From Lentzea sp. NBRC 105346 (lineage in GTDB: Bacteria; Actinomycetota; Actinomycetes; Mycobacteriales; Pseudonocardiaceae): a DNA stretch of 64,000 bases. Positions 1,861-49,853 of this stretch are shown here, in pieces (the stretch's first letter is position 1; every line of letters starts with the position of its first letter). The notes beneath the pieces were generated by a model, which saw only the letters and a list, made by a program, of their open reading frames with translations, did not search any database and was not told the DNA's origin. The stretch lies in NCBI RefSeq assembly GCF_030269605.1, contig NZ_BSTQ01000012.1, forward strand, positions 62,001-126,000. The letters are read 5' to 3'. Both the position numbers and the translations under genes were made by a program.

Positions 1861-1877
1861 CGGACGGACAACTCAAC

Positions 1878-3611
<1,734 letters not shown>

Positions 3612-6867: not shown

Positions 6868-7856
6868 GGTGTTCCTCCCTTGAGCAGTTCGAGGACCCGC
6901 GCCGCCGTCAGCGGCGCCAGCAGCAGACCGTTGCGGTGGTGACCGCACGCGGCGATGACGCCGGGCTCCAGCCAGTCGACGATCGGCACGTTGTCCGGGC
7001 TGCCCGCGCGGAACCCGACCGCGCACTCGGCGAGCGCGTACTCGGCGATGCCCGGCAGCACGGTTTCCGCGTCCCGCAACAGGTCTCGCACGCCGGCGAC
7101 CGTCACGTCGGTGTCGAACCCGGCTTCGTACTGGGTGGCGCCGACGACGACCCCGTCGTTGCGCGGCACGATGTACACCGGCCGCCCGGACACCGAAGCG
7201 CGGATCGTGTGCGTTGGTGGCGGCAGCGCCCCGGAACGTCTTGTCAGGCGCAGGATCTCGCCCTTCACCGGTCGGATCACGTCCTTCAGCGCCGGATGCA
7301 GGGCTCCGCTCCACGCCCCCGCCGCGATCACCGTGAACCGTCCGTCCACATTGGAATTGAAGGTGACCCCGGTCTCGACGCAAGCCTTGCGCAGCGCGGA
7401 AAGCAGCTCGCGGTTGTCCACCGCCAGATCTCCCGGCGCGAACACCCCGCCGCGCACCGCCGGCCCCAACGCCGGCTCCACCTGTCGGATCGCCCTATTG
7501 TTCAACAATTCTACTTCACCATTGTTGAACAATCCCTCAATACGACGAAGTTCGGCCAGGTCGCCGGGCAAAGTCCCGACCACGATCGTCCCATTGTTGA
7601 ACAATTCTACGTTCAGCTCAGCGGCGAACCCCGGCCACCGAGCCAGCGCCGCAACACCTTGCGCGGTAACGGTTTCCTCACCCGGCCAAGCCTCTGAGAC
7701 GGGCGCGAGCATGCCGCCCGCGACGACCGAACCGCCGTGCGGCGAGCCGAGATCGTGCACGTTCACGGAGAACCCGTCGCGCGCGGCGAACCACGCCACG
7801 GACAGGCCGATGACACCGCCGCCGAGGACGGACACTTCTACGGTCAAGGCATTCAC
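6864..7856 (-). CDS. thiO: Glycine oxidase ThiO
   Basis: ThiO is an FAD-dependent oxidase that turns glycine into dehydroglycine (iminoacetate) for thiazole synthesis. The 330-residue protein opens with the dinucleotide-binding motif VLGGGVIGLSVAW, carries VIAAGAWSG in the middle, and ends with the DAO-family CGHHRNGLLLAP motif. The annotated GTG at 7856 sits only two bases from the GGGAG of the riboswitch. A TTG at 7847 has better spacing (10 bases) and may be the real start. Codons for residues about 84-120 are unusually AT-rich and encode three related patches, ELFNNG, GLFNNG and ELLNNR (see the repeat at 7497). Confidence 0.95.
7497..7605. repeat. Three 13-bp near-palindromes inside thiO
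   Basis: The 13-mer ATTGTTCAACAAT occurs at 7497-7509. Its reverse complement ATTGTTGAACAAT occurs at 7521-7533 and 7593-7605. The copies at 7497 and 7593 are both followed by TCTAC. Each copy is itself palindromic apart from the central base. They stand out as AT-rich islands in a high-GC gene and are translated in frame as (E/G)L(F/L)NN. They could be protein-binding operators, a small palindromic mobile unit, or a local duplication. Confidence 0.9.
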
Positions 7857-7860
7857 GCTC

Positions 7861-7948
7861 CCTGCGCCGGCATGACCCGGATCAGGTTCGACGGTCGGAG
7901 CGAACCACGCTCCCTCTCAGCCCGGTGTTCTCCAGGCTCCCGTGCGGA
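7861..7948 (-). promoter_or_regulatory. TPP riboswitch controlling thiO-thiS-thiG
   Basis: Read on the minus strand, the element has CACGGGAGCCTGGAG, then CCGGGCTGAGAGGGAGC, a short hairpin with GTGGTTCGCTCC, and then ACCTGATCCGGGTCATGCCGG with GCGCAGGGAGC at its 3' end. These are the conserved THI-box segments. The terminal AGGGAG doubles as the ribosome binding site of thiO, so repression by thiamine pyrophosphate is expected at translation. Confidence 0.95.
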
Positions 7949-7957
7949 CCAAGCCCC

Positions 7958-42306: not shown

Positions 42307-42360
42307 GCTTCCAGACTGCCTTAGGGCAACCTAAGTCAGGTCACAGGACCATATCGGGGA

Positions 42361-42389
42361 TTGACCACGGTGAACCACGTCACTACCGT
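42361..42389 (+). promoter_or_regulatory. Promoter of the ROK-led operon
   Basis: TTGACC (42361-42366) and TACCGT (42384-42389) have 17-bp spacing and lie 44 bp before the ROK start. AAGTTAACAGACAGG downstream holds the ribosome binding site AGGAG and might hold the operator. Confidence 0.6.
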
Positions 42390-42432
42390 GACCCGAAATC
42401 GTCTGGAAAGTTAACAGACAGGAGCTGACCCA

Positions 42433-43644
42433 ATGCGTGCCGGAAGCCCACGACTGCTGCGGGAGATCAATGACCGCGCAGCGATCGAGGCTCTGCTGCG
42501 CAACGGGCCGCTGACCAGGTCGGAGCTGGAAGGTCTGATCGGCCTCTCCAAGCCGGCCACCGCGCAGCTGCTCACCCGGCTCGAGACCGCCGACACCGTG
42601 ATCCGCAACGGGTTGCGCGGCGGCGGGCGCGGGCCGCGGGCGCAGCTGTGGTCGGTCAACGGCGCGCTGGCCCACGTGGCCGCCGTCGACCTGACCCCCG
42701 AGACCGTCGACGTCGCCATCGCGGACATCTCCGGCGCCGTGCTCACCGAGCACCGCGCCCCGATGCCCAAGACCGGCGAGGTCCTCGAGACGTTCGTCAG
42801 CGCGATCGGCAAGGCCGCCGGCCAGGCGGGACTGGCCACGCAGCAGCTGCTCCACGTCGTGGTCGGCAGCCCCGGCGCGGTCGACCCGGCTACCGGCGAG
42901 CTCGCCTACGCGCCGCACCTGCCCGGCTGGTCCGGGTTCGACGTGCCCGGCCGGCTTCGCTCGGCGCTCGGGACGAGCGTCAGCGTGGAGAACGACGTCA
43001 ACCTCGTCGCGCTCGAGGAGATGGTGGCCGGACGGGCCACCGAGGTGCGCAACTTCGTGGTCATCTGGCCCGCCGACCTGGTCGGCGCCGCCGTGGTGAT
43101 CAACGGATCCCTGCTCCGCGGCGCCACGGGAGGTGCGGGCGAGATCGACGGCCTGCAGATCCCCGACCGTGCCAACGCCGACACCGACACGGACCGCCTC
43201 GGCGGCACGTTCGGTGAACTGCTCAGCAACGTATCGATCTGCAAGCTGGCCCGTGCGCACGGGCTGGCGGCCCGCAACGGTCACACCGCGGTGCGCAAGG
43301 CACTCGCGGCGGGCCCTGCGGGCCGGGAGTTCCTGGTTGATCTCGCCAGGCGCATCGCCACGGGAGTGGCTAGCGTCGTCGCGGTGCTCGACCCGGAACT
43401 GATCCTCCTGTCGGGCGAGATCGCCCAGGCGGGGGGAACGACGCTCAACGATCTCGTTGCCGCGGAACTGCGGCAACTGGTGGTGCCTCGAACACCCGTA
43501 CAGCTCGCTCTGGTCACCGGGAAACCGGTCCGCTCCGGCGCCCTGCACTCGGCGCTCGCGGTGGCCAGGGAACAGATCTTCGGGCTCCCGGCCGCCACCA
43601 CCGAACCATTCCGCGGCCACGTTGCCGCCACGTCCCCCCGTTGA
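42433..43644 (+). CDS. ROK-family transcriptional regulator
   Basis: This 403-residue regulator has an N-terminal winged helix (IEALLRNGPLTRSELEGLIGLS, then KPATAQLLTRLE) and a ROK sugar-binding domain with VVVGSPGAVDP, VENDVNLVALEEM and GATGGAGEIDGL. The usual zinc CxCGxxGC motif of ROK kinases is absent, as is seen in some regulator-only members. It heads the importer operon, 14 bp before the binding-protein gene, and probably senses the imported sugar or its phosphate. Confidence 0.92.
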   Translation: MRAGSPRLLREINDRAAIEALLRNGPLTRSELEGLIGLSKPATAQLLTRLETADTVIRNGLRGGGRGPRAQLWSVNGALAHVAAVDLTPETVDVAIADISGAVLTEHRAPMPKTGEVLETFVSAIGKAAGQAGLATQQLLHVVVGSPGAVDPATGELAYAPHLPGWSGFDVPGRLRSALGTSVSVENDVNLVALEEMVAGRATEVRNFVVIWPADLVGAAVVINGSLLRGATGGAGEIDGLQIPDRANADTDTDRLGGTFGELLSNVSICKLARAHGLAARNGHTAVRKALAAGPAGREFLVDLARRIATGVASVVAVLDPELILLSGEIAQAGGTTLNDLVAAELRQLVVPRTPVQLALVTGKPVRSGALHSALAVAREQIFGLPAATTEPFRGHVAATSPR

Positions 43645-43658
43645 TCGAAGGAGTGCGC

Positions 43659-44993
43659 ATGCGCAAGACCACTCGTGCTGCCTTGCTGTGTGTCGCCGCG
43701 GCGCTGTCCCTGACCGCGTGTGCGGCAGGCAAGGGTGGCGGCTCCAACTCCGGTGCCGCCGCGGCCCCCGGCAAGGATGACAAGATCACGCTCACGGTGT
43801 GGAGCAACTACTCCGACCGCGAGTACGAAGAGGTCACCAAGGCCCTCAACAGCTTCAAGAAGAAGTACCCGAACATCGAGATCAAGCACGAGGGTGCGCA
43901 GGACGACGACAAGATCACCGCGGGTATCCGCAGTGGCAACCCGCCGGACGTCGCGATGTCGTTCACCACGGACAACATCGGCTCCTTCTGCTCCACGGGC
44001 GCGTTCCAGGAACTGAAGCCGTACATCGACCGCGACAAGCCGCCGATGGACCAGATCAACGAGGCCGTCCGCAGCTACACCGAGTACAAGGGCAACCGCT
44101 GCGCGATGCCCATGCTCACCGACATCTACGGCCTGTACTTCAACACCGACATGCTGTCCGCGGCCGGCCTGACCAAGCCGCCGTCGACCATCTCGGAGCT
44201 GCTCGACTACGCGAAGAAGACGACCAAGAAGGCGGCCGACGGCTCCATCGAGGTCGCGGGCTTCCTGCCGACGATGATGTTCTACAACAACCGTCCGCAG
44301 ATCTGGGCCCCGTTCTTCGGTGCCGAGTGGGACAAGGACGGCAAGTCCGCCCTGGCCTCGAGCCCCGGCTGGACCGAGATGTTCAAGTTCCAGAAGGACC
44401 TCGTCGACTTCTACGGCTACGACGCGCTCGAGCGCTTCCGCGCCGGCCTCGGCCAGGAGTACTCCGCGGACCACGCGTTCCACCAGGGCAAGATCGCGAT
44501 GATGATGGACGGCGAGTACCGCACCGCCTTCCTCAAGGCCCAGGCCCCGAACATCAAGTTCGGCACCGCGCCGTTCCCGGTCCTCGACTCCAAGAAGTCC
44601 GAGCTGCAGGGCGTCGGCTTCACCACCGGCACGATCATGGGCATCCCCAAGGGCGCCAAGAACCCCGGCGCCGCGTGGGAGCTGATCAAGCACATGACGT
44701 TCGACAAGGAGACGATCGTCTCGCTGGCGAACGGCATCAAGAACGTGCCCAGCACCAAGGAATCGCTGTCCGACCCGAACCTCCAGGTCGACGAGCAGTT
44801 CAAGACGTTCATCGACCTCGCCAAGAGCGGCAAGCTCAAGGGCAACCCGGTGACGCCGATCGGCGACGCGCACATCAAGGCCGTCGGCGACTACGCCACC
44901 GAATGGCAGTCGGGCAAGTCCACCGACCTCGCGGCCGGTCTCAAGGGAGTCGATCAGCAGATCGACGACCAGATCGCCAAGGCCGGCAAGTAA
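43659..44993 (+). CDS. ABC sugar-binding lipoprotein (family 1)
   Basis: This 444-residue lipoprotein precursor has a signal ending LTAC (Cys21), then LTVWSNYSDREYEEVTKAL, a family 1 solute-binding N-terminus. GYDALERFRAGLGQEYSADHAFHQGKIAMMMDGE is the typical second-lobe segment. AAGGAG precedes the ATG. It delivers a glycoside to the two permeases that follow. The downstream GH4 enzyme and kinase suggest a beta-linked disaccharide. Confidence 0.92.
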   Translation: MRKTTRAALLCVAAALSLTACAAGKGGGSNSGAAAAPGKDDKITLTVWSNYSDREYEEVTKALNSFKKKYPNIEIKHEGAQDDDKITAGIRSGNPPDVAMSFTTDNIGSFCSTGAFQELKPYIDRDKPPMDQINEAVRSYTEYKGNRCAMPMLTDIYGLYFNTDMLSAAGLTKPPSTISELLDYAKKTTKKAADGSIEVAGFLPTMMFYNNRPQIWAPFFGAEWDKDGKSALASSPGWTEMFKFQKDLVDFYGYDALERFRAGLGQEYSADHAFHQGKIAMMMDGEYRTAFLKAQAPNIKFGTAPFPVLDSKKSELQGVGFTTGTIMGIPKGAKNPGAAWELIKHMTFDKETIVSLANGIKNVPSTKESLSDPNLQVDEQFKTFIDLAKSGKLKGNPVTPIGDAHIKAVGDYATEWQSGKSTDLAAGLKGVDQQIDDQIAKAGK

Positions 44994-45006
44994 AGGAAGA
45001 CGGAAG

Positions 45007-45999
45007 ATGACTGCCACGCTGGAACGCGTGGACGTGCGAAGGACCGCCCCGGCCAAGGGGCGGTCCCGAGCCCGCGCACGCAACCGCTTCACGGTGCTCG
45101 CGTTCATGGCGCCGGCCATCATCGGGTTCGTCCTGTTCTTCGGGTACCCGCTGATCGCCACGGTGATCTTCTCGTTCACCAAGTACGACCTGATCAACCC
45201 GCCGGAGTTCATCGGACTCGGCAACTACACGTTCATGTGGGGCGACAAGCTCTTCTGGACGTCCATCGAGAACACGCTGTGGTTCGTGGTCGTCGTGACC
45301 ATCGCCCGCACGGTGTTCGCGCTCGGTGTCGCGTCGGTGATCGCCCGCCTGAAGTCGGGTGTGGGCCTGATCCGCACGCTGTGCTACCTGCCGTCGCTCG
45401 CCCCGCCGGTGGCCGCGACGCTGGTGTTCTTCATGGTGCTGCGCCCCAACGGCGGCCCGCTCAACAAGGTGCTGGACTTCTTCGGCGTCGACAGTCCACT
45501 GTGGTTCTCCGACCCCAGCTGGGCGAAGCCGGGTGTCACGGCGATCATGATGTGGGTCTGCGGCGACCTGATGATCATCATGCTCGCGGCGATTCTCGAC
45601 GTGCCGCAGGAACAGTACGAAGCGGCCGAGCTCGACGGCGCGGGCCCGATCCGCCGGTGGTGGCACATCACGCTGCCGACGATCTCGCCGGTGCTGCTGT
45701 TCGGCATCGTGAACTCGATCATCCTGGCGCTGCAGCTGTTCACCCAGGCGATCGTCGCCGGGTCCGCGGCGACCGGGTCGGCCGACCCGACCGGCAGTAC
45801 CAAGAACCTCGGGTACCCGCAGAACTCGCTGCTGACGTTCCCGACTTTCCTTTACCAGACCGGTTTCCGGTACTTCGACATGGGCTACGCGGCCGCGATG
45901 GCGACGGTGCTGTTCGTCATCTCGTTCGCGGTCACGATCGTGCTGGTCAACAAGATGCGCAAGAGCTCGCACGCGGAGGAAGGGGGTCCGGGCGCATGA
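45007..45999 (+). CDS. ABC sugar permease (MalF type)
   Basis: This 330-residue permease has six membrane segments. The first is FTVLAFMAPAIIGFVLFFGYPLI, and the EAA coupling loop is QYEAAELDGAGPIRRWWHITLP. It starts 13 bp after the binding protein and ends with an ATGA overlap onto the next permease. It has a long cytoplasmic, Arg-rich N-terminus. Confidence 0.93.
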   Translation: MTATLERVDVRRTAPAKGRSRARARNRFTVLAFMAPAIIGFVLFFGYPLIATVIFSFTKYDLINPPEFIGLGNYTFMWGDKLFWTSIENTLWFVVVVTIARTVFALGVASVIARLKSGVGLIRTLCYLPSLAPPVAATLVFFMVLRPNGGPLNKVLDFFGVDSPLWFSDPSWAKPGVTAIMMWVCGDLMIIMLAAILDVPQEQYEAAELDGAGPIRRWWHITLPTISPVLLFGIVNSIILALQLFTQAIVAGSAATGSADPTGSTKNLGYPQNSLLTFPTFLYQTGFRYFDMGYAAAMATVLFVISFAVTIVLVNKMRKSSHAEEGGPGA

Positions 46000-46883
46000 C
46001 CACCACGCTTCCGAACCCGGTCGTGGTCGCTCGCGAGGAGAGCCACGCGAAACCCCGCAGCCCCAGGCAGATTCTGGACTGGGTGGCGATCCACAGCATC
46101 GGCCTCGCGATGGGCCTGATCTTCGCCGCACCGGTGGTGTTCGTGCTGCTGACCGCGGTGATGTCCGACGACCAGGCGTTCACCGCGGACCTGTGGCCAC
46201 GCGAGTGGCACTGGGAGAACTTCATCGAGGTCTTCGAGAAGGCCCCGCTGGTCCGCTACCTGTTCAACAGCATGCTGTACTCGCTGCTGGCGACCCTGGG
46301 CATGCTGCTCTCGTCGATCCCGGCGGCCTACGCGCTGGCGAAGCTCAAGTGGCGCGGGCAGAACGTGGTGTTCCTGCTCGTCATCGGCGCCATGATGCTG
46401 CCGCCGCAGGTCGTCGCGGTCCCGCTGTACGACACGTGGTCGTCGCTGGGCCTGACCGGCACGCTGTGGCCGTTGATCGTGCCGTACTTCCTGTTCGACG
46501 CGTTCAGCATCTTCCTGCTGCGGCAGTTCATGCTCACCATCCCGCAGTCCTATGTGGACGCGGCACGGGTGGACGGCTGCACGGAGTTCCAGGCGCTGAT
46601 CCGGATCATCGTGCCGATGGCGCGGCCCGGTATCGCGGCCACCGCGCTGTTCTGCTTTCTCTTCACCTGGAACGACTACTTCGGTCCCCTGCTGTACACC
46701 AGCGAGGTCAAGGACCAGTGGACGTTGTCGCTGGCGCTGGCCTCGTTCAAGGGCATGCACTTCGTGCAGTGGAACTCGGCGATGGCCGTGACCCTGCTCG
46801 CGATGCTCCCGGCCGTCGTGCTCTTCGTCTTCGCACAGCGGTCGTTCGTCAAGGGAATCACGTTCACGGGAGTCAAGGGATGA
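45996..46883 (+). CDS. ABC sugar permease (MalG type)
   Basis: This 295-residue permease is the partner of the previous one. It has six membrane segments and the EAA loop region SYVDAARVDGCTEFQALIRIIVPM, and ends with the common SFVKGITFTGVKG. Both ends overlap their neighbours by ATGA. No ATPase gene is present in the operon, again implying a shared ATPase. Confidence 0.93.
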   Translation: MTTTLPNPVVVAREESHAKPRSPRQILDWVAIHSIGLAMGLIFAAPVVFVLLTAVMSDDQAFTADLWPREWHWENFIEVFEKAPLVRYLFNSMLYSLLATLGMLLSSIPAAYALAKLKWRGQNVVFLLVIGAMMLPPQVVAVPLYDTWSSLGLTGTLWPLIVPYFLFDAFSIFLLRQFMLTIPQSYVDAARVDGCTEFQALIRIIVPMARPGIAATALFCFLFTWNDYFGPLLYTSEVKDQWTLSLALASFKGMHFVQWNSAMAVTLLAMLPAVVLFVFAQRSFVKGITFTGVKG

Positions 46884-48148
46884 AACTCACCGTCGTCGGT
46901 GGCGGGTCCACCTACACACCTGAGCTGGTCGACGGCATTGCCGGCCGTCGCACCAGCCTCGCGGTGGACGAGATCGTCCTGGTCGACCCGGACGAGCACC
47001 GCCTGTCGATCGTCGGGCCGTTCAGCCAGCGACTCCTCTCGCACGCCGGCCACCCGGCGAAGGTGCGCACCACGACGTCGCTGGAGCAGGGCATCGAGGG
47101 CGCGTCCGCGGTGCTGCTGCAGCTGCGCGTCGGCGGTCAGGCGGCGCGTGCGTCCGACGAGACGTTCCCGCTGTCGTGCGGCTGCGTCGGTCAGGAGACG
47201 ACCGGCGCGGGCGGTCTGGCGAAGGCGTTGCGCACGGTTCCCGTGGTGCTCGACATCGCGGACAAGGTGCGCCGGCTGTGCGGCGAGAACACCTGGATCG
47301 TCAACTTCACCAACCCGGTCGGCATCGTCACGCGGGCGCTGCTGCAGGCGGGCCACCGCGCCGTCGGCCTGTGCAACGTGGCGATCACGTTCCAGCGCTG
47401 GACTTCCGGGCTGCTCGGCGTCGAGCCGGACGCGGTCGAGCTGGAGCACGTCGGCCTGAACCACTTGTCGTGGGAACGCGGCGTGTTCGTCGACGGCAAG
47501 GACCGGCTGCCGGAGCTGCTGGCGCAGCACGCTTCCGGCCTGGCCGAGCACATCGGCATCGACGGCACGCTGATGCAGCGCCTGAACATGGTGCCGTCGT
47601 ACTACCTGAAGTACTTCTACAACCACGACGAGGTGGTGAAGAAGCAGCTCACCGACGTGCCGCGCGCCGAAGTCGTCGCGGCCGTGGAGAAGGACCTGCT
47701 GGACATCTACAGCGACCCGACCGTCGTGACGAAGCCCGAGCAGCTCTCGCAGCGCGGTGGCGCGTACTACTCGGAGGCGGCGGTGCAGCTGGTGCACGCC
47801 CTCACCGGTGGCGCCGGCGCCGAGCGGCACGTGGTCAACGTGCGCAATGGCGGCACGCTGCCGTTCCTCCCGGACGACGCCGTGATCGAGGTCCCGGCGA
47901 CCGTGTCGGCCTCCGGCGCGGTGCCGCTGCCGGTGCGCCCGGTGGAGCCGTCCATCTCCGGCCTGATCTCGCACGTGACGAGCTACGAGTACCTGGCGCT
48001 CGAAGCGGCGATCCACGGTGGCCGCGACCGCGTCTCGAACGCGTTGCTCGCGCACCCGTTGGTCGGCCAGCACGCCATCGCAGACCAGCTGGCCGACGAG
48101 CTGATCGCGCAGAACCGCGATCTGCTGCCGTGGGTGAAGGGAGCTTGA
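46880..48148 (+). CDS. GH4 family glycosidase, probable 6-phospho-beta-glucosidase
   Basis: This family 4 glycosidase uses NAD and a divalent metal and works by a redox elimination mechanism. The 422-residue protein has the NAD motif LTVVGGGSTYTPELVDG, VNFTNPVGIVT, GLCNVAITF (metal Cys), VGLNHLSW (metal His) and PSYYLKYFYNHDEVV. GH4 enzymes of this subgroup cleave 6-phospho-beta-glucosides. ABC import does not phosphorylate the sugar, so the kinase encoded next may supply the phosphate. Alternatively, this enzyme acts on an unphosphorylated sugar. Confidence 0.9.
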   Translation: MKLTVVGGGSTYTPELVDGIAGRRTSLAVDEIVLVDPDEHRLSIVGPFSQRLLSHAGHPAKVRTTTSLEQGIEGASAVLLQLRVGGQAARASDETFPLSCGCVGQETTGAGGLAKALRTVPVVLDIADKVRRLCGENTWIVNFTNPVGIVTRALLQAGHRAVGLCNVAITFQRWTSGLLGVEPDAVELEHVGLNHLSWERGVFVDGKDRLPELLAQHASGLAEHIGIDGTLMQRLNMVPSYYLKYFYNHDEVVKKQLTDVPRAEVVAAVEKDLLDIYSDPTVVTKPEQLSQRGGAYYSEAAVQLVHALTGGAGAERHVVNVRNGGTLPFLPDDAVIEVPATVSASGAVPLPVRPVEPSISGLISHVTSYEYLALEAAIHGGRDRVSNALLAHPLVGQHAIADQLADELIAQNRDLLPWVKGA

Positions 48149-48151
48149 TTC

Positions 48152-49165
48152 ATGACCGACCGGGTGCTCGCGATCGACGGCGGGAACAGCAAGACAGCCG
48201 TGCTGCTGGTCGACTCCGACGGCAAGGTGCTCGCGCAGGTGCGCGGACCGGGCGCCTCGCCACAGGTCGTCGGCCTGCAGAAGGGCCTCGACGTGTTCGA
48301 GGGCCTGGCGCGTGAAGCGGCTGCGCAGGCTGGACTCTCCCCCGACGAGCCGATCGCCCGGCACACAGCCGCCTACCTCGCGGGCGCCGACCTGCCGCGC
48401 GAGGAAGAGGAGCTGACCGAGGCGATCGCCGCTCGCGGCTGGTCAACGTCCACAGTGGTCGGTAACGACACGTTCGCGCTGCTGCGTGCCGGTACCGCCG
48501 ACGGCGTGGGCGTCGCGGTGGTCTGCGGTGCGGGCATCAACGCCGTGGGTGTCGCCCGCGACGGTCGCACACACCGCTTCCCGGCCCTGGGCCCGATCTC
48601 CGGCGACTGGGGCGGTGGCGGCCACCTCGGCAACGAGGCGCTCTGGCTGGCCGTGCGTGCCGAGGACGGTCGCGGCAAGCCGACCGAGCTGCTGCCGGCG
48701 TTGATCGAGCACTACGGCGTCTCCACGATTCACGAGGCCGTGGAGAAGATCCACTTCCAGGAGATCGAGTTCGACCCCCACCCGTTGTGCCCCTTGCTGT
48801 TCTCGGTGGCGGCACGTGGTGACGAGGTCGCGCAGGCCGTGGTCGATCGGCTGATCGAGGAGATCACGCTGCTCGCCACCGTGTCGCTGCAGCGTCTCGA
48901 CCTGGCCGGCGAGGCCGTGGACGTGGTGCTCGGCGGTGGCGTGATGACCGGTGCCACGGAGGCCGTGCTGGGCCCGGTGCGGCGGCACGTGCTGGAGGTC
49001 GCGCCGCTCGCCCAGGTGCGGGTGGTGGATCTGCCGCCCGTGGTCGGGGCCGCGTTGCTGGGACTCGACACCATCGGCGCTTCGCCTGCCGCGGAGTTGC
49101 GCCTGCGTTCGGCGTACGACGAACACCTGCCGGCTGCGAACTTAGGAATCGCCGCGGGCTCTTAA
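48152..49165 (+). CDS. BadF/BcrA-type sugar kinase (NagK-like)
   Basis: This 337-residue ASKHA kinase has LAIDGGNSKTAVLLVDSDG at the N-terminus, GNDTFALLRAG, VCGAGINAVGV, SGDWGGGGHLGNEAL and VLGGGVMTGAT. It belongs with N-acetylglucosamine or glucosamine kinases. It is the last gene of the ROK operon, 3 bp after the GH4 gene, and may phosphorylate the imported sugar or the released aglycone sugar. It shares little sequence beyond motifs with the kinase at 36342. Confidence 0.88.
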   Translation: MTDRVLAIDGGNSKTAVLLVDSDGKVLAQVRGPGASPQVVGLQKGLDVFEGLAREAAAQAGLSPDEPIARHTAAYLAGADLPREEEELTEAIAARGWSTSTVVGNDTFALLRAGTADGVGVAVVCGAGINAVGVARDGRTHRFPALGPISGDWGGGGHLGNEALWLAVRAEDGRGKPTELLPALIEHYGVSTIHEAVEKIHFQEIEFDPHPLCPLLFSVAARGDEVAQAVVDRLIEEITLLATVSLQRLDLAGEAVDVVLGGGVMTGATEAVLGPVRRHVLEVAPLAQVRVVDLPPVVGAALLGLDTIGASPAAELRLRSAYDEHLPAANLGIAAGS

Positions 49166-49167
49166 GA

Positions 49168-49467
49168 CCCCGCTGCCGATGGGATGGATACAGCGGTAGA
49201 TCGGCGGCGGCGCCCAAAACTGAACAGTGTTTCCCACAGACCCCGCTGTAAGGGGTAGATCGGCGGCGGCGCCCCTTACAGCGGTCCCAACCCCACCATT
49301 CGCGGTAGATCGGCGGCGGCGCCGCGAATGGTGGTCCCAACCCCGCTAGCCACGGGGATTGATACAGCGGACTGATCGGCGGCGGCGCTCCCCGCGTCCT
49401 GCCGGTTCCAAGGCCCCGCTAGCGGGGGAACTGATCGGCGGCGGCGTTCCCCTGCTAGCGGTCCCAA
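49168..49467. repeat. Array of five hairpin units with a conserved 16-nt loop
   Basis: Units begin with CCCC at 49168, 49241, 49291, 49341 and 49414, giving lengths of 73, 50, 50, 73 and about 54 bp. Each contains TAGATCGGCGGCGGCG or CTGATCGGCGGCGGCG (at 49197, 49256, 49306, 49372, 49431), and most end in GGTCCCAA. In units 2 and 3 the loop is flanked by perfect 13-bp stems of different sequence (CCGCTGTAAGGGG; CCACCATTCGCGG, each with its complement). Unit 5 has a 15-bp stem with one G-T pair. Units 1 and 4 carry a 23-bp extension containing GATACAGCGG and have weak stems. Stem sequence varies while pairing is kept, so folding of DNA or RNA is being conserved. No ORF runs through it. It starts 2 bp after the kinase stop. 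Confidence 0.93.
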
Positions 49468-49470
49468 ACG

Positions 49471-49513
49471 CCCCCGGAACGACATCACGCGCCGATGTCG
49501 CTCCGGGGGTTTT
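49471..49513 (+). terminator. Intrinsic terminator after the hairpin array
   Basis: A 16-bp stem with one mismatch (CCCCCGGAACGACATC at 49471-49486, paired with 49494-49509) is followed by TTTT. It ends transcription from the ROK operon and the array. It also contains the stop of the convergent gene at 49485, so it may serve both directions. Confidence 0.8.
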
Positions 49514-49853
49514 GCGTGTTCAACGTCGGCAACTGCGGCAACGGCATCTCCGTCGTCCGCACGATGCTCGGCTGCGGCGCGGTGGTCTGCGGCGTCACGA
49601 CCGGACGCGACTGCGGCGGCGGACTCGTCGGCTTCGGCTGCGGTTTCGGCAGGCTCGAGGTGGCGGCCGGCGTGTACTCCATGGGAGGGTCGTCACCGCC
49701 GATGTTGGAGACCCCCGGTTCACCGTCGGGCGGACGCACGTCCTGCACCGGTTTCGCCCCGGTTCCCGCTCCGAGCACCACCCCGGCCACGAGGCCGAGC
49801 AGCACCACAACAGCGCTGATGGAGGTCCAGGGCAGGGGAAAGCCGGGTCGCAC
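49485..49853 (-). CDS. Small single-span membrane protein with Pro-rich exterior
   Basis: I do not recognise a family. The 122-residue protein has a membrane segment at about residues 11-30 (ISAVVVLLGLVAGVVLGAGTG). A long Pro/Thr/Ser-rich tail follows (LPKPQPKPTSPPPQSRP and more) and is likely outside the cell. Its GTG start is at 49853. The stop lies inside the terminator hairpin. It may be a cell-envelope protein, with no functional clue from its neighbours. Confidence 0.65.
   Translation of the reverse strand: MRPGFPLPWTSISAVVVLLGLVAGVVLGAGTGAKPVQDVRPPDGEPGVSNIGGDDPPMEYTPAATSSLPKPQPKPTSPPPQSRPVVTPQTTAPQPSIVRTTEMPLPQLPTLNTQNPRSDIGA

Follow-up and report, generated by a model that had tools for sequence, protein, structure and literature searches.

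REP elements are, as a rule, palindromes present in high copy number. Another kind of structured element at the 3′ ends of operons is the cluster of U-less (I-shaped) hairpins of GC-rich bacteria; parts of PMC8355165 describe such clusters without U-tracts as terminators, hold that the U-tract is unnecessary, and state that the loops of terminator hairpins are mostly short, 81% of them having 5–8 nt. Structured ends lacking U also exist in a Streptomyces, as part of PMC8269248 reports. Here we describe a tandem array of five related units in a window of 64,000 nt, part of the 9.4-Mb genome of Lentzea sp. NBRC 105346, whose relatives are the other members of the genus Lentzea. Like the U-less clusters, this array consists of several GC-rich stem-loops that closely follow the final stop codon of the operon and have no U-tract. 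In contrast to them, it has an invariant 8-nt loop core, long loops and a stem sequence conserved in most of the genus, and a separate terminator-like hairpin follows it, in the window as well as in 20 of 21 further Lentzea species with the array.

Searches of the open-licence literature (PMC) showed no description of the array among the listed titles and openings of abstracts. When the whole window was scanned against Rfam at gathering thresholds, only one tRNA and two TPP riboswitches were detected and no family fell at the array; a permissive scan of 48900–49700 gave three matches, all far under the cut-off. The preliminary description, which knew of no matching named family, was right in this respect. 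The two TPP riboswitches (1870–1985, plus strand, and 7842–7953, minus strand) lie ∼6 kb apart on opposite strands.

Structure and placement of the array

The array lies in the 3′ UTR of a group of plus-strand genes (42433–49165) for a ROK regulator, a sugar ABC transporter, a GH4 glycosidase and a kinase (Table 1), as had been proposed. Judging from their spacing, these genes probably form a single transcript; NCBIfam matches for their proteins were all under the curated cut-offs. The kinase stop codon (TAA, 49163–49165) is followed by two bases and then by unit 1, and the array fills the space between this codon and the terminator-like hairpin. As expected for an intrinsic-terminator cluster, the hairpins are near the stop codon, the first clean one beginning at 49243. 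However, TCCCAA and not a U-tract directly follows units 2, 3 and 5. At the other end of the operon, codons 1–30 of the ROK gene (42433–42522) had a third-position diversity of 0.007 compared to 0.065–0.29 in later 15-codon blocks (18 Lentzea), and the ROK leader (42330–42432) contained long invariant blocks. An operator or RNA element is likely to overlap the start or leader of this gene, judging from these patterns.

Table 1. Coordinates of the array units, the downstream hairpin and the upstream genes in the window
Feature	Positions	Strand	Description
ROK regulator	42433–43644	+	ORF + Pfam
Substrate-binding protein, sugar ABC transporter	43659–44993	+	ORF + Pfam
Two permeases	45007–45999 and 45996–46883	+	ORF + Pfam
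GH4 glycosidase	46880–48148	+	ORF + Pfam
BadF/NagK-type kinase (BadF/BcrAD family)	48152–49165	+	ORF + Pfam
Unit 1, composite	49168–49239	+	core GATCGGCGGCGGCG at 49199–49212; no simple stem
Unit 2, hairpin	49241–49290	+	13 bp; 16-nt spacer TAGATCGGCGGCGGCG; boxes CCCC and GGTCCCAA
Unit 3, hairpin	49291–49340	+	13 bp; spacer TAGATCGGCGGCGGCG as in unit 2; other stem
Unit 4, composite	49341–49411	+	extra GGGATTGATACAGCGG ahead of core
Unit 5, hairpin	49414–49467	+	16 pairs, one G.T; loop TGATCGGCGGCGGC
Terminator-like hairpin	49470–49510	+	17 arm positions with mismatches; loop ACGCGCC; then TTTT

The sequence GATCGGCGGCGGCG occurs five times in the array, always on the plus strand (49199, 49258, 49308, 49374 and 49433). 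When up to two mismatches were allowed, 25 matches were present in the window, compared to 6.9 expected and 15 in the largest shuffle. Eight additional copies were found elsewhere in the genome, all of which, when read by eye, lacked such a stem. The 361-nt region folded at −193.2 kcal/mol (z −5.05), a value not equalled by any of 100 shuffles.

Not all units are alike. The array had been described as five hairpins; all five cores are present, and units 2, 3 and 5 are true hairpins of 13–16 bp, whereas units 1 and 4 are composite and keep the core on interrupted stems, according to both the fold and an arm scan, which detected no simple hairpin in unit 4. In the fold, the core of unit 1 was paired with its own 5′ arm (CCGCTGCCGAT/ATCGGCGGCGG). 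Units 2 and 3 are 50 bp each, with perfect 13-bp arms, a 16-nt spacer and a loop-closing T.G beyond the 13 pairs. The shared end boxes also proved to be a property of part of the array, since CCCC and GGTCCCAA were found at units 2, 3 and 5, while unit 4 has GGTTCCAA and unit 1 has no such 3′ box. Units 1 and 4 do share an extension; however, the repeat finder recovered 16 nt at 94% and not the intact, identical 23 bp reported earlier. The sequence GGGATNGATACAGCGG, located at 49181–49196 in unit 1 and at 49355–49370 in unit 4, includes TACAGCGG, with which the 3′ arm of unit 2 ends, and it looks like a product of slippage or template switching between units.

A terminator had been proposed at the end of the array, and a hairpin followed by TTTT is indeed located there, but the strict terminator scan of the window returned no hits, this hairpin included. 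Its loop, ACGCGCC, is present in 18 of the 20 Lentzea species in which it follows the array, and its stem covaries, with three pair types at one position. Kissing between this loop and the array loop was considered and rejected by inspection, as just four pairs are possible.

Distribution in related genomes

A DNA search detected the array at the same locus, 3′ of the same kinase, in 22 of 24 Lentzea genomes including that of the window, which rules out a chance repeat or local duplication. The other 21 species have 62 hairpins in total, three in each of 20 species and two in the last one. The stems of these species (H1, CCGTCTCAGGGGG; H2, CCACTGCTCGGGG; H3, CCTTTCCGAGGGGG...) differ from those of the window species, which in a kinase tree is sister to the remaining 23 Lentzea (98/95). 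The two Lentzea without the array are nested within this tree, one of them on a long kinase branch. In one of the two, L. xinjiangensis, a long GC-rich palindrome takes the place of the array 3′ of the kinase, suggesting that any hairpin may do at this position. The palindrome region also contains a possible relic of H2.

Two covariance models were searched against genomes of the family Pseudonocardiaceae, one built from nine units (297 genomes) and a broader one built from 24 units (390 genomes). The broader model gave strong matches in 32 of the 390 genomes, comprising 22 Lentzea, 7 Saccharothrix and 3 Umezawaea, so the element, first described from the window alone, is not confined to it. 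Weak matches only were found in eight of the 390 genomes (E 0.006–0.05), and one Saccharothrix had an extra weak match (E 0.003). We treated these nine places as chance; all of them overlap ORFs of at least 120 aa, an overlap that carries little weight in GC-rich DNA. A class-wide run of 394 genomes gave, besides the window's own genome, two weak matches (E 0.001 and 0.007). These many-genome runs used stricter filters. In the window's own genome, three strong matches were detected, all in the array, and the next had an E value of 0.3. A dispersed or mobile repeat was thus rejected, as the genome holds a single locus and phage and plasmid collections yielded no match.

Additional cases came from the region 3′ of the kinase. 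One Solihabitans record has a single hairpin there, and reading 40 more 3′ UTRs of kinase orthologs revealed an array hairpin in six additional Saccharothrix and in two genomes of a further genus (g19), as well as degenerate forms in two Saccharothrix and a third case in g19 recognized by eye. Overall, 22 Saccharothrix genomes with the kinase included 13 with the hairpin, 2 degenerate and 7 with none; four of the six kinase-bearing g19 genomes were examined, one of which was without the array. In twelve other genera with the kinase (1–3 genomes each) the array was not seen, and several of them had, by eye, hairpins of unrelated sequence at the same place. The element is therefore dispensable, being absent from 2 of 24 Lentzea and from the 7 kinase-bearing Saccharothrix, in addition to the two in which it is degenerate.

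Sequence constraint and pairing

We calculated pairwise diversity for the 21 Lentzea species, excluding the window species. The 8-nt core GGCGGCGG had a diversity of 0.000 in H1, H2 and H3 and was the most constrained part of the array, in agreement with the earlier emphasis on the loop, whereas the 5′ parts of the same loops varied freely (0.215–0.330). Values for the two arms were 0.007 each in H1, 0.037 and 0.073 in H2, and 0.183 and 0.105 in H3. For comparison, the first linker had 0.136, the terminator hairpin 0.138, the short leader 0.564 and the sequence downstream of the terminator 0.497, and kinase codon positions 1, 2 and 3 had 0.110, 0.062 and 0.336, respectively. The H1 stem is thus less diverse than second codon positions of the kinase. 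In most Lentzea, stem sequence is kept far beyond what pairing needs, although other genera and the window species have different stems. These data demonstrate constraint on the core and, inside a clade, on stem sequence. Identical stems in many genomes, with no compensatory change, had been expected of a chance duplication, and H1 is in fact nearly identical in the 21 Lentzea species; however, this identity reflects constraint and not chance, because the same species differ by 0.336 per site at kinase third positions.

The 21 loci were first found by their likeness to the window array, yet they represent 21 of the 23 other genus genomes, and the last two were read directly. A scan blind to loop sequence recovered 82 strong hairpins starting within 185 nt past the stop codon in these species, of which 62 contained GGCGGCGG in the loop and the remaining 20, found singly in 20 species, were the terminator. 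The invariance of the core within the genus is therefore not an artefact of searching for it. Both C residues of GGCGGCGG are constant across the 62 Lentzea hairpins; outside Lentzea the core occasionally varies (GGTGGCGG, GGCGGCAG).

Pairing was followed pair by pair in H1 and H2. H1 showed two changes only, both to G.T, and H2 had no broken pair wherever it was present (one species is without H2). In H3, the inner stem changes in length, and one species has a mismatch there. Across all genera, 67 distinct units were selected on Watson-Crick pairs only, one g19 hairpin being counted in two registers, and their remaining pairs comprised 35 G.T/T.G, 2 A.C/C.A and 8 others; when these units were merged by local context into 11 homologous groups, the counts were 25 G.T, 1 A.C and 6 others. 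Wobble pairs are thus accepted chiefly in the operon-strand reading, and for this reason the array most likely works as operon-strand RNA and not as an antisense transcript or as the DNA cruciform considered earlier, although a mutational strand bias could contribute to the asymmetry.

Comparison of units across four genera showed changes on both sides at 11 of 12 pairs, with 98.6% of cells still paired. As these units had been picked as hairpins, the covariation figure is weaker evidence; two of five measures were matched by 9 of 500 shuffles, and in another run one measure was matched by 312 of 500. Moreover, template switching is able to make and repair stems in one step (described in part of PMC8794818), so that stems that differ and yet stay paired, from which selection on folding had originally been argued, do not by themselves prove it. 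The case for selection rests instead on substitution rates and on the asymmetry of wobble pairs, because neither follows from template switching. On this basis RNA-level selection on the array is well supported, and the original conclusion is borne out by a different argument.

Possible functions of the array

The array occupies one conserved place in relatives and is selected as operon-strand RNA. From sequence patterns, we give about even chances to its being a cis-acting 3′-UTR element that, through a trans factor bound to its loop, determines where the operon mRNA ends or how stable it is. Each GC-rich hairpin would display the core GGCGGCGG in its loop of mostly 13–16 nt, where it might be read base by base by a partner acting in trans, which would most likely be an RNA-binding protein. 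Tandem copies could increase avidity, and stems unlike one another would let each hairpin fold locally. Binding might then fix the end and lifetime of the operon mRNA, either by protecting the 3′ end or by controlling read-through past the kinase. We infer the partner, the avidity and the effect on the mRNA; loop binding is proposed because of sequence constraint alone.

An explanation that is unlikely but deserves serious consideration is a plain U-less terminator or 3′-stabilising hairpin cluster, in which stem stability alone counts and the loop is an inherited passenger. The position directly after the stop codon fits it, as do the U-less clusters and ends mentioned above (described in parts of PMC8355165 and PMC8269248), the palindrome that replaces the array in one Lentzea, and the other hairpins found at this place in several genera. 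However, a passenger loop does not account for a core that is the least variable part of all, next to a freely varying 5′ segment in the same loop, nor does a plain cluster account for an H1 stem ∼20 times less diverse than the adjacent terminator hairpin (0.007 vs 0.138). At mostly 13–16 nt, the array loops are also longer than the 5–8 nt typical of described terminator hairpins (PMC8355165).

Rather improbable is a trans-acting RNA or sponge, in which the 3′ UTR would be cut into hairpins and their loops would act as seeds that base-pair with CCGCCGCC sites of a second RNA, or would titrate that RNA. Such a role is consistent with the presence of the same loop several times on one transcript and with the base-specific conservation of eight loop positions, both C residues among them. 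The 5′ arm and loop of H1 also resemble the antisense of ROK codons 82–92 (42678–42706 in the window, and orthologous positions), with 25 of 29 positions matched in two species, 12 of them exact and consecutive; outside the array, nothing in 2.4 million positions of highly redundant DNA matched better. A 12-mer of H1 occurs outside the array at seven places in 24 genomes, two of which are this same ROK site. Within the upstream 8 kb, H1 had its highest-scoring antisense match at the ROK site in at least 14 of 16 Lentzea (12 located 6.47–6.50 kb upstream and two more recognized by sequence), and the scores of this match beat all 30 shuffles in 10 of 16, though these were simple shuffles and related species.

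However, the ROK site is not conserved, and changes there break the pairing. Third-position diversity was 0.203 in codons 82–92 compared to 0.172 in codons 31–300, and array units of Umezawaea, Saccharothrix and the window had no antisense match in their own operons that stood out from shuffles; some of the units in that scan were GGCGGCGG stretches within the kinase gene, a few of which exceeded their shuffles. Because third positions of the site are no better conserved than those of the gene as a whole, and other genera and the window lack the match, ROK antisense pairing was dropped as a general mechanism, and the likeness may be a coincidence. Antisense matches of H3 were within the shuffle range, while H2 beat its 30 shuffles in 3 of 15 species, with a best place that recurs ∼6.9 kb upstream in 8 of 15. 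In addition, the C-run loops of 6C RNA, read in six genomes, do not fit the array loop, and CCGCCGCC, with 41 occurrences in the window, is too common to name a target.

We consider a hairpin/G-quadruplex switch very unlikely. Here, the G-run of the 5′ arm and the loop segment GG-C-GG-C-GG would fold into a two-tier quadruplex while the C-run of the 3′ arm has yet to be transcribed. GG is present within 8 nt of the 5′ arm by the loop in every member of all 11 homologous groups; in 8 of these groups every member has GGG, and CCC occurs in one; the ungrouped count was 30 GGG and 1 CCC among 32 arm classes, though these classes split homologous stems. The first quadruplex loop would be free in sequence, as observed. 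However, the orientation of the G-runs may reflect common descent, a 13-bp GC stem should win at equilibrium, and one-base loops should tolerate a change of C to U. Since the C residues of GGCGGCGG never change in Lentzea, base-specific recognition by protein or RNA is the better reading. A DNA-level element (a cruciform, a recombination or replication site, or a functionless template-switch repeat) could explain the perfect palindromes and units 1 and 4, which resemble recombination or slippage products, and template switching can generate stems (part of PMC8794818), but it is highly improbable given the 35 : 2 (25 : 1 merged) excess of G.T over A.C, the single genomic locus, the lack of matches in phage and plasmid collections, and rates far under those of kinase third positions.

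Combining a quadruplex with a bound loop leads to a more speculative model, which we regard as improbable, in which each unit is a two-state RNA device that adopts a quadruplex during transcription and then a hairpin showing GGCGGCGG to a dedicated factor. If it were true, three to five units might count or time the passage of polymerase and decide the fate of the 3′ end of the sugar operon, and the array would represent an undescribed class of actinobacterial 3′-UTR control array. Returning to the preferred reading of a loop-bound cis element, few bacterial 3′-UTR elements with a sequence-specific loop are known to us, and actinobacterial RNA-binding regulators are poorly known. The fixed 8-nt core, the clade-specific stems and a constraint stronger than that on kinase second codon positions make the array a bait for a binding factor. 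Because rates, wobble asymmetry and losses are all measurable at this one locus, it is also well suited to distinguishing selection from template switching.

Comparison with known elements

REPs and BIMEs (REPs in part after PMC3733652) resemble the array in being palindromes of tens of bases located 3′ of operons, and protection of mRNA has been proposed for REPs; however, REPs occur in high copy, and the array is one locus in its genome. The earlier suggestion of a REP-like element was therefore abandoned, the covariance-model search of the window's own genome having revealed this sole locus and not many dispersed copies. The 6C RNA, a multi-hairpin sRNA of actinobacteria, likewise has tandem hairpins with a common loop motif, but it has two C-rich loops and its own locus, whereas the array has G-rich loops and is part of a 3′ UTR. 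6C RNA (RF01066) was found elsewhere, once per genome, in each of the 11 genomes searched.

In attC, TIGR and CRISPR arrays, as in the array described here, constant segments alternate with variable ones. Unlike theirs, the variable parts of this array are complementary to one another and are kept at one place in relatives. The feet of attC sites consist of an R″ box (GTTRRRY) and an R′ box (RYYYAAC), and no GTTRRRY foot was visible by eye at the CCCC end of the units. In TIGR-Tas systems, the Tas protein carries a Nop domain; PF01798 had no match in the window's own genome, compared to matches in 4 of 14 control genomes. CRISPR arrays have identical repeats and unrelated spacers, in contrast to the mutually complementary arms seen here, and the CRISPR scores in Rfam were under the cut-off. 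On these features, none of the three array types fits. ANTAR-target RNAs are paired hairpins with hexanucleotide loops, a size that differs from the 13–16 nt of most array loops. Plain terminators formed by hairpin clusters (PMC8355165, PMC8269248) explain the place of the array but not its core.
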